From Hypholoma sublateritium FD-334 SS-4 (Eukaryota; Basidiomycota; Agaricomycetes; Agaricales; Strophariaceae), in assembly GCA_000827495.1 (NCBI GenBank), contig KN817532.1, positions 315,388-379,387 of the forward strand: a stretch of 64,000 nucleotides of DNA, in the 5' to 3' direction. The notes beneath the pieces were generated by a model. The model was given only the letters and a program-made list of their open reading frames with translations. It was not told where the DNA came from and made no database searches. The translations under genes were made by a program, and so were the position numbers. This document shows, piece by piece, positions 7,293-9,711 of this stretch (position 1 is the stretch's first letter; each line of letters opens with the position of its first letter).

Positions 7293-9711
7293 ATGTCGCA
7301 ATTACAGCTCCCGCTCCCATCTCGCCTGGCCGAACTTAGGCATAGGTCTCCTTCGATAAGGAGCTCGAGGAAGGAGCCCAAGGAAGACAAAGGTCGTGTC
7401 CCCCGCCCATCTCATAGGCACGCTTCGCCCTCCGCGCCCTGGCCATGGGTCGACCTCGAAGACGGTAAGCGCCCCGCTGTCTCGTCCCCGTGCCCCCCTC
7501 ATGCCCCGCCTAGAGGTCGACAAAACGCAGCTCGAGTCGCCGTTGCCGCCGATTCCCGCGCTGTGCGATCACTCGTCGTGCGGCGGATGCTATGTTGGCT
7601 ATCCACAGTCGCGCTTCCCAAACTGGACCGAGCGCCAGGTTAAGAAGAGCCGCATCTTCGAGGCGATCCATGAATACGACCGCGAGAGGAAGTGCATCCT
7701 GCACCGGGTCGACGTCGACAGCAATGGCTTCTTCACGAACCCAGGCGAGATCGTAGCCGCTCCTGGGCACGATAATGAGATCTGGGAGGAGCTGATCCAC
7801 GAGAAGGTGCGTGTCGATCATTGATGGCCCATAAGCTACAGGCGTGGCGGGGTGTTAACCAGTTGAAGTAGAGGCCTGAGGGCATCCGTGTGCGTGCGAT
7901 GTTCATCGAGAATATGTCGGGTCCTATCCTGCAGATGCTCGGTGCAAAGTAAGCGCTGCATTCTTCGAACCAGAACTGCCAAAGAGATGGCTCACGTGCG
8001 ATATGCCACATTTCAGGTTTAACATCGAGCCCTTTTTCTGGTCCTCATCGTTGAGTTGGATTCCTTCGCGGTTCCAGGAGGAAATTCAGCCTGGCATCGG
8101 AGATCGTGAGGCTTTGTCGATAGCCGCTGGCATTTGCGTGACAGAGAACTCAAGTCGACTTTGATGCAGATATAACCATCACGCTGACTTTCCTGCGGTC
8201 CATGTCAGACCATGACGCGCAGCATCTGAGCTCAGCCCCCAATAATAACTCGAAGGCGTCACTCAATAATACCCGCACTCTCCTGGGAACACAGATGATT
8301 GACCCACATGCGCCGCTGTTCCTGTACTCCAGTATGTGCCCACCTACAAAAATTCCCTTGTTTGAGCGCTCACAGCTCTGCGAACCGCAGACAGGCGCCT
8401 TCTTGTGCTGGATCTCCTCTCGGTGCATCTTATCCGGAACAAAAATGGTAGCACCATTATCTCGTTCCACCCAAGCCTTGACGTACCGACGACCACTGCT
8501 CCGTTCTTGCACGAACGCATCCGCTTTGCTGGTATGTTTCCCGTCATGATGTCGACCGACACCCTCTGATGCTCCCGCAGGACAAAGTGTGTATTGGCAG
8601 AGCATATTCCAGAAGTCCTCGGACCCAACATTTGTTCTCCTCACCTTCGTTTGGCACGCAATGTACGCCTGGGACGAAGCCCTCGAGAACCTGTATGACC
8701 ACATCTGTTCTTTGGTGAGTAGATGGGCTATGAATTAAATATGCCCTGTTCATAACAACCGCATTCCAGGAAACGCGCGTCATCTCCACGGCTGAAATGC
8801 CACTGACCCGCGAGCTGCATATCATCCGCGCGCACCACCTGCATTACTCGTCGCTCATAGACGACTTCCAGAAGCACGTCCTATTTATCCGTGACACGCA
8901 CAACCCCGCGATGGAGGCCGCGACGCCAGAGGACCGCAAGCACAGCAAAGAGACCATGCATCGCGAGTGCGAAAACCTTCTAACAGAGGCTAAGCGCCTC
9001 AAGAACGAGTTGCACATGCAAGAGCGCCGGTTGAAGAACGTTATGAACTTGGTACGTCATGTCAATGCCGCCATGTAGTGTAGTATTAGGTGGCACCTAA
9101 CATGGCTTCGCCCTCTAGGTTTTTAGCAGCGTAAATATCACAGACAGCCGGTATATGCGAGAGATGACGGAGGCTGCTGTGCGGGACAGTGCTGGTGAGT
9201 CCTCAATAATATCAATGATAACCTGTGTTGATGATTTCTTTCAGCCGTATGTCTTGCTCGAGCTTCGAATACTCTCGTACTGACTTGTTCTAGATGAAAC
9301 AAATTGCTTACCTGACTATGGTCTTTTTGCCTGCGTCCTTTGTCGCGGTGCGTAGTAACTGTATCGCATCACAATTGGAATACACTAAACAGTACATATT
9401 AGGGTGTCTTTGGAATGAACATCAGTGAGATCAATCCTGGCACCCTCGGCAATCTCTCCATCTATGTAGCGATTGCGCTACCGCTCACCCTCATTACCGC
9501 ATGGATCATCATCGCCTTCCAGAGCCGTTACATATTCCCAGAAGGTACCCCCTTCATCACGCGACTCAGCTGGCCCGTCAAACTCCTATCCAACATAATG
9601 AAAAAGAAGAACGAAGAGGATGACCCGCATAGTAATCATTCAGAATCAGAAAAGGACGGCGATTCATATAGCTATCACTGTAATAAGACTCCTTCGCATT
9701 CGTCCGACTGA
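7293..9711 (+). CDS. CorA-like Mg2+ transporter family protein with GMN motif
   Basis: Twelve exons: 7293-7464, 7514-7806, 7872-7948, 8017-8105, 8170-8331, 8376-8531, 8581-8714, 8770-9051, 9119-9194, 9245-9246, 9294-9347 and 9403-9711. They total 1806 nt in one frame, 601 residues. The cytoplasmic N-terminal region contains ENMSGPILQMLG, FWSSSLSWIPSRFQEE and TADRRLLVLDLLSVHLIRNK. The C-terminus has the CorA signature: RDSA-A-MKQIAYLTM, FLPASFVAGVFGMN (membrane segment 1, GMN at about 503-505), then a second membrane segment (about 516-540) and an acidic tail. GMN marks the selectivity entrance in CorA divalent-cation channels. Basidiomycetes have many such long CorA-like proteins, so actual Mg2+ transport is inference. 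Exon 10 is only two bases (see findings); without it the frame of membrane segment 1 is lost. Confidence 0.85.
9245..9246 (+). other. Probable 2-nt micro-exon of the CorA-like gene
   Basis: TTTCAG precedes and GTATGT follows these two C residues. The flanking introns are 50 nt (9195-9244) and 47 nt (9247-9293, with CTGAC branch site and TTCTAG acceptor), both normal lengths for this window. The split codon G|CC gives the alanine of the family motif DSxAMK. Confidence 0.75.

Follow-up and report, generated by a model that had tools for sequence, protein, structure and literature searches.

Evidence for a two-nucleotide exon in a CorA-like transporter gene of Hypholoma sublateritium and in its relatives

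The transporter gene and its joint

The window, a stretch of 64,000 nucleotides, lies on contig C15 of the 46-Mb assembly of Hypholoma sublateritium FD-334 SS-4 (Agaricales, Strophariaceae). Our main focus is a CorA-like transporter gene in which two coding bases, CC, appear to form an exon of their own (Table 1). The 12-exon model given here agrees with the deposited protein HYPSUDRAFT_37835 at all 596 residues. Downstream on the same strand, from 11241 of the window onward, another small multi-exon gene starts (MGWFSDDSDQAGAYDQ/VVNAPHKATLSHELIAAAASYE/...), putatively CipC-like.

Table 1. Features of the transporter gene around the joint (positions in the window).
Feature	Position	Strand	Remarks
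CorA-like transporter gene, 12 exons, 596 aa	7293..9711	+	protein equals deposited HYPSUDRAFT_37835; PF01544 match
Exon 9, end of stalk helix, phase 1 end (...RDSA + G)	9119..9194	+	ends ...GAC AGT GCT G
Intron 9 (here intron 1), 50 nt, GTGAGT...TTTCAG	9195..9244	+	candidate branch site TTGAT 13 nt before end
Putative 2-nt exon CC, completing the Ala476 codon G/CC	9245..9246	+	
Intron 10 (here intron 2), 47 nt, GTATGT...TTCTAG	9247..9293	+	CTGAC 10 nt before end
Exon 11, membrane helix 1, MKQIAYLTMVFLPASFVA	9294..9347	+	begins ATGAAA; Met477 aligned with position 291 of 3jcf_A
Exon 12, FGMN motif, membrane helix 2, C-terminal tail	9403..9711	+	

The product scores 49.8 bits against the Pfam CorA profile (cut-off 27), and the GMN motif expected after membrane helix 1 is present as FGMN at residues 497–500. 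Structure prediction gave a model with low overall confidence; its cytosolic part and stalk resemble those of CorA structures, and a single helix would run across residues 460–487, also at low confidence. Among solved structures, a profile search with our alignment (A1) gave no match at E values up to 0.01, and a single-sequence search returned ZntB (E 0.13) and CorA chains (E about 0.25–0.28). Because the weak single-sequence alignment to 3jcf_A (Magnesium transport protein CorA, E 0.25) is joined by the Pfam match, we equate Met477, the residue that follows Ala476, with CorA position 291, a residue of the pore gate in the T. maritima protein.

The 99 nt from 9195 to 9293 do not behave as a single intron, because the joined product leaves the frame directly after DSA, meets a stop downstream and contains neither membrane helix. 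With CC retained, one frame of 1791 nt encodes 596 aa and a stop. The initial annotation had predicted both this frameshift ahead of membrane helix 1 and its repair by introns of 50 and 47 nt around CC, and its coordinates proved exact to the base. The two flanking introns are canonical GT-AG introns of workable length, the other nine introns of the gene measuring 49–68 nt. The interval offers a single AG/NN/GT split, and CC is its sole in-phase internal exon that leaves both introns at least 40 nt long.

We asked how often such a pattern arises by chance, using 20,000 dinucleotide shuffles of each interval, that of the window gene and the equivalent ones of two sister genes described below (C106 and C22), with the first 6 and last 3 bases held and both parts at least 45 nt long. 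The patterns were picked after the sequences had been seen, and the counts should be read in that light: AGNNGT appeared 243 (window), 2026 (C106) and 912 (C22) times, AGCNGT 56, 464 and 148 times, and AGCNGTRNGT, which is common to all three loci, 1, 11 and 3 times.

Sister genes in the same genome

A search of the same genome gave four relatives that hold this region, C106, C22, C83 and C29; more distant CorA matches on C1 and C9 were left out. Intron 1 stands at a common position in all five genes. Intron 2 and the putative 2-nt exon are found in three of them, the exon reading CC in the window gene and CT in C106 and C22 and giving alanine each time. The layout is 72 nt, CT, 51 nt in C106 (G/GTGAGT...GAAG/CT/GTGAGT...ATAG/ATG) and 55 nt, CT, 53 nt in C22 (G/GTAAGC...ATAG/CT/GTAGGT...ATAG/ATG). 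CT is the sole in-phase choice in C22. In C106 there is another in-phase internal exon, of 29 nt; read by eye, it begins G/CT AAT TGA and thus runs into a stop.

C83 and C29 share the position of intron 1 but have no intron 2, and their dinucleotide is fused in frame to the next codon (CC ATC AAG in C83, TC ATG AAG in C29). Comparison with the paralogs of this genome gave the same two-intron layout in two of them and a fused dinucleotide in the two others. It also bears out the proposal that CC supplies the alanine of the RDSxAMK motif, since the motif holds and two diverged paralogs have the same structure. BLAST between the intervals of the three genes found shared runs no longer than 7–8 nt, so the common layout does not stem from recent copying.

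Taken as single introns, the three intervals would measure 99 (window), 125 (C106) and 110 nt (C22), and the six half-introns measure 47–72 nt; the other 25 canonical introns of the three threaded genes (9, 7 and 9) comprise 24 of 49–68 nt and one of 119 nt. CTGAC, noted earlier in the second half-intron of the window gene, was found in intron 2 of all three genes, 10, 10 and 14 nt before the end. In intron 1 of C22, no YTNAY branch motif was found within 6–40 nt of the end.

The sister genes also differ from the window gene in other respects. The stalk exon of C106 (L015 2537–2591) is about 7 residues shorter than that of the window gene (VVVIQNFADSGKMKEDSA) and the deposited C106 model is partial; this gene may be decaying or specialised. 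In C83 (L017 2328–2335), the conserved methionine that opens membrane helix 1 is replaced by isoleucine (CC ATC AAG), and the helix reads FAPA, compared to FLPA.

We threaded the deposited proteins exactly onto the DNA, allowing non-canonical introns at a penalty. For HYPSUDRAFT_37835, the solution of lowest cost uses CC as an exon and 11 introns, all of them canonical. This exon is therefore very probably part of the deposited model already, and the expectation that gene predictors miss such exons does not apply to the window gene, whose deposited protein has the alanine. It does apply to C106 and C22: both match further deposited proteins of H. sublateritium FD-334 SS-4, and both of these proteins are incorrect at the joint. 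For C22, the deposited protein has DSAGMK and threads most cheaply with one non-canonical intron there. For C106, the genuine stalk exon is missing from the model, and part of intron 1 is translated (VSSFSNDFMSYT/MK).

The joint in homologous proteins and competing readings

We examined the best 120 of 589 homologs that passed the E-value threshold, comprising 104 annotated genome proteins and 16 proteins from lgn/jgi contigs. Two automatic rules for sorting the junctions misfiled some rows (e.g., P0079, P0004 and P0030); the counts for this set come from a separate pattern reading, with P0060, P0041 and P0042 read by eye. All 16 lgn/jgi homologs carry V[RK]DS[AT]A directly before MK (...AMK). 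Ten of these contigs are probably cDNA, because they are too short to hold the coding sequence together with the introns of the window gene.

The annotated models in this best-120 set are less uniform. Alanine stands before M[KR] in 64 of the 104 (63 by pattern and P0060 by eye), glutamate in 2 (P0005 and P0017) and glycine in 12, and 26 are otherwise disturbed, some of these having the alanine but then no M[KR]. In total, 38 of the 104 lack Ala or Glu directly before M[KR]; in many cases they carry an insertion or a frameshifted segment immediately ahead of the pore helix. Glycine is what reading through the donor of intron 1 (G/GT) would give, and we infer this origin for the glycine in individual annotated models; the C22 model demonstrably needs a non-canonical joint.

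Two further kinds of disturbance have the form that mis-modelled junctions around a dinucleotide would leave. In three models from Lyophyllaceae, the residues after DSA fit MKQIAYLTM.FLP when it is read in the +1 frame (14 of 14 residues in Tricholomella and in Sphagnurus, 5 residues in Tephrocybe), the product expected when G is joined to ATG without the dinucleotide. When one frameshifted tail was shuffled and compared to one template, none of 2000 shuffles reached 5. Among 115 annotated proteins, including the added P0126 and P0127, eight have the alanine followed by a residue other than M[KR]: valine in five, serine in two (P0031 and P0058) and leucine in one (P0064). Valine is what a GT donor right behind the dinucleotide would force. 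The valine cases are P0010 and P0015 (two genes of Psilocybe cf. subviscida), P0097 (Lyophyllum, Lyophyllaceae), P0126 (Amanita, Amanitaceae) and P0127 (Tetrapyrgos, Campanellaceae). Of the 11 proteins added to the best-120 set, only P0126 and P0127 entered this valine comparison; among the rest, P0121 and P0128 too show a disturbance close to the joint. These protein models suggest that the 2-nt exon occurs in several families of Agaricales outside Hypholoma. The viral_contigs, searched with the protein and the alignment for relatives in other Agaricales DNA, yielded none.

As a rough contrast, we assembled a second set with a Pisolithus query, in which 119 of the 120 listed proteins were new (95 annotated, 24 lgn/jgi). 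Among the proteins listed, glycine was found in only 1 of the 95 annotated models (P0166), which fits the absence of intron 2 from this set but does not prove it. Eight annotated Pisolithus rows (P0137, P0138, P0141, P0142, P0143, P0148, P0149 and P0157) read DSRAMK, a form shared by one lgn protein, P0139. P0239 has a similar form, and P0221 is not readable. These Boletales homologs are about 14 residues shorter ahead of membrane helix 1. Given that one lgn protein shares the form, it may reflect a real shortening of the exon.

Among the competing readings, the one that survives best accepts the CC exon as real but holds that it is optional, so that skipping would yield a frameshifted, probably unstable mRNA and act as an expression switch. 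Skipping would lead to an early stop, and the available account of the Trichoderma Xlr2 microexon describes it as regulated. However, the alanine is present in every one of the 16 lgn/jgi homologs, although frameshifted products would be hard to find as full-length proteins, and we consider a switch of this kind unlikely.

A second reading replaces the two introns with a single 115-nt intron at 9179–9293 that uses a weak donor, GTGCGG. The initial annotation had placed this donor near 9176; it exists and keeps the frame, but it begins at 9179. The resulting junction, 9178 to 9294 (GAGGCTGCT-ATGAAA), gives a product that reads MTEAA/MKQ and lacks VRDSAA. Against the Pfam CorA profile, this product does slightly better (38.4 vs 34.5 bits), and four Mycena models (P0075, P0081, P0105 and P0107) have a similar joint. 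Yet the intron would remove the six positions V[RK]DS[AT]A that all 16 lgn/jgi homologs among the best 120 of 589 keep and that the deposited HYPSUDRAFT_37835 retains. Moreover, the C22 paralog has no GT at this position, and of the 25 further canonical introns in the genes that were threaded, 24 are shorter than 115 nt. We therefore regard the single longer intron as very improbable.

Two short introns back to back also recall a stwintron, from which all 99 nt would be removed by two successive reactions with no base kept; nested introns are known in fungi from the sources available to us, and they share with the present pair an adjacent position and a need for consecutive splicing. In a stwintron as those sources describe it, though, one intron interrupts the splice signal of the other, whereas here two coding bases are kept between the introns. 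Loss of the whole interval would shift the frame ahead of membrane helix 1, and the dinucleotide is coding in the paralogs that lack intron 2, and we regard this reading as extremely improbable. Equally implausible is that the gene has decayed or that the sequence or its assembly is faulty: C106 is partly degraded in appearance, but nothing of the kind was found at the window locus, the layout is identical at three separate loci, and the remaining frame of the window gene is open and conserved. Judged from gene and protein sequences, CC is almost certainly a real, normally included 2-nt exon between two ordinary short spliceosomal introns.

Proposed splicing and origin of the two-nucleotide exon, and its significance

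In the arrangement we propose, intron 1 would interrupt the alanine codon in phase 1, and intron 2 would follow in phase 0, 2 nt downstream and directly before the methionine of helix 1. With only 2 nt between them, GTATGT and TTTCAG cannot be occupied at the same time by U1 and the 3' splice-site factors, respectively, so the two introns would be removed consecutively, probably by intron definition. In all three genes with the 2-nt exon, the base ahead of the dinucleotide is G both in unspliced and in half-spliced RNA, so removal of intron 1 leaves the context of the second donor unchanged. Since the second donor keeps its context, it seems slightly more likely that intron 1 leaves first, as in recursive splicing. 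For potato invertase, the second intron is removed first, according to a work cited in the available part of PMC4674806.

The 2-nt exon probably arose as two introns came to stand two nucleotides apart. Intron 1 is common to the five family genes of this genome, and intron 2 was either acquired by one lineage or dropped from another. Selection would then retain the two bases, because their loss breaks the frame at the pore helix. In our tree of 61 rows and 168 columns, one 24-row group (94/96) holds both C106 and the window gene, and C22 stands next to Pholiota P0029 (90/85), neither branch being starred. C83 and C29 are long branches that join each other (88/73), and for this reason the tree gives no direction of gain or loss for intron 2.

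The CC exon belongs to a known, very rare class of ultra-small exons; it is well supported by comparison and is itself probably widespread. The accessible text of PMC12940212 cites exons of 2–5 bp in Arabidopsis, Drosophila and humans, and 1-nt exons are described in Arabidopsis (PMC4674806) and other plants (PMC8831610). The closest fungal counterpart is the 1-nt exon of Fusarium CYP621A, claimed in the accessible text as the first for a fungal gene (PMC12940212). As in our case, this ultra-small exon was recognised from the reading frame, canonical sites, orthologs and an intronless relative; according to the paper, only one of the transcripts listed is correct at the joint. Unlike CC, it is a single base in a P450 gene and is backed by 18 RNA reads.

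The 1-nt exons of plant APC11 and VPS55 are likewise too small for simultaneous recognition of both introns, and sequential removal was proposed for them in the portions of PMC4674806 and PMC8831610 available to us. In their intron-free relatives, the base lies inside a larger exon, as the dinucleotide does in C83 and C29; in contrast to CC, these exons were tested by GFP constructs, RT-PCR and RNA-seq (PMC4674806, PMC8831610). P450 genes of Phanerochaete chrysosporium, another basidiomycete, also combine small exons with frequent introns of 45–55 bp, but the shortest exon given in the part of PMC1184071 at hand is 6 bp. The literature searched, which covered few subscription papers, yielded no fungal exon of 2 nt.

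Taken across families and paralogs, the 2-nt exon is probably of old date and spread through the Agaricales as an order-wide trait of these transporters, misread in 38 of the 104 annotated models among the best 120 of 589 homologs. Few exons of one or two bases are documented, and they probe how short an exon can be and still be spliced. If the feature is indeed order-wide, it would provide a large natural set of 2-nt exons, and the relatives without intron 2 would show the state before or after the exon came into being. Ultra-small exons are often mishandled by gene-finding software, and because so many annotated models are disturbed at this joint, public sequences of this CorA-like family require checking. 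Because a single genome holds such variants, with both introns in three genes and intron 1 only in two, the order of intron removal and the origin of the exon become directly addressable.
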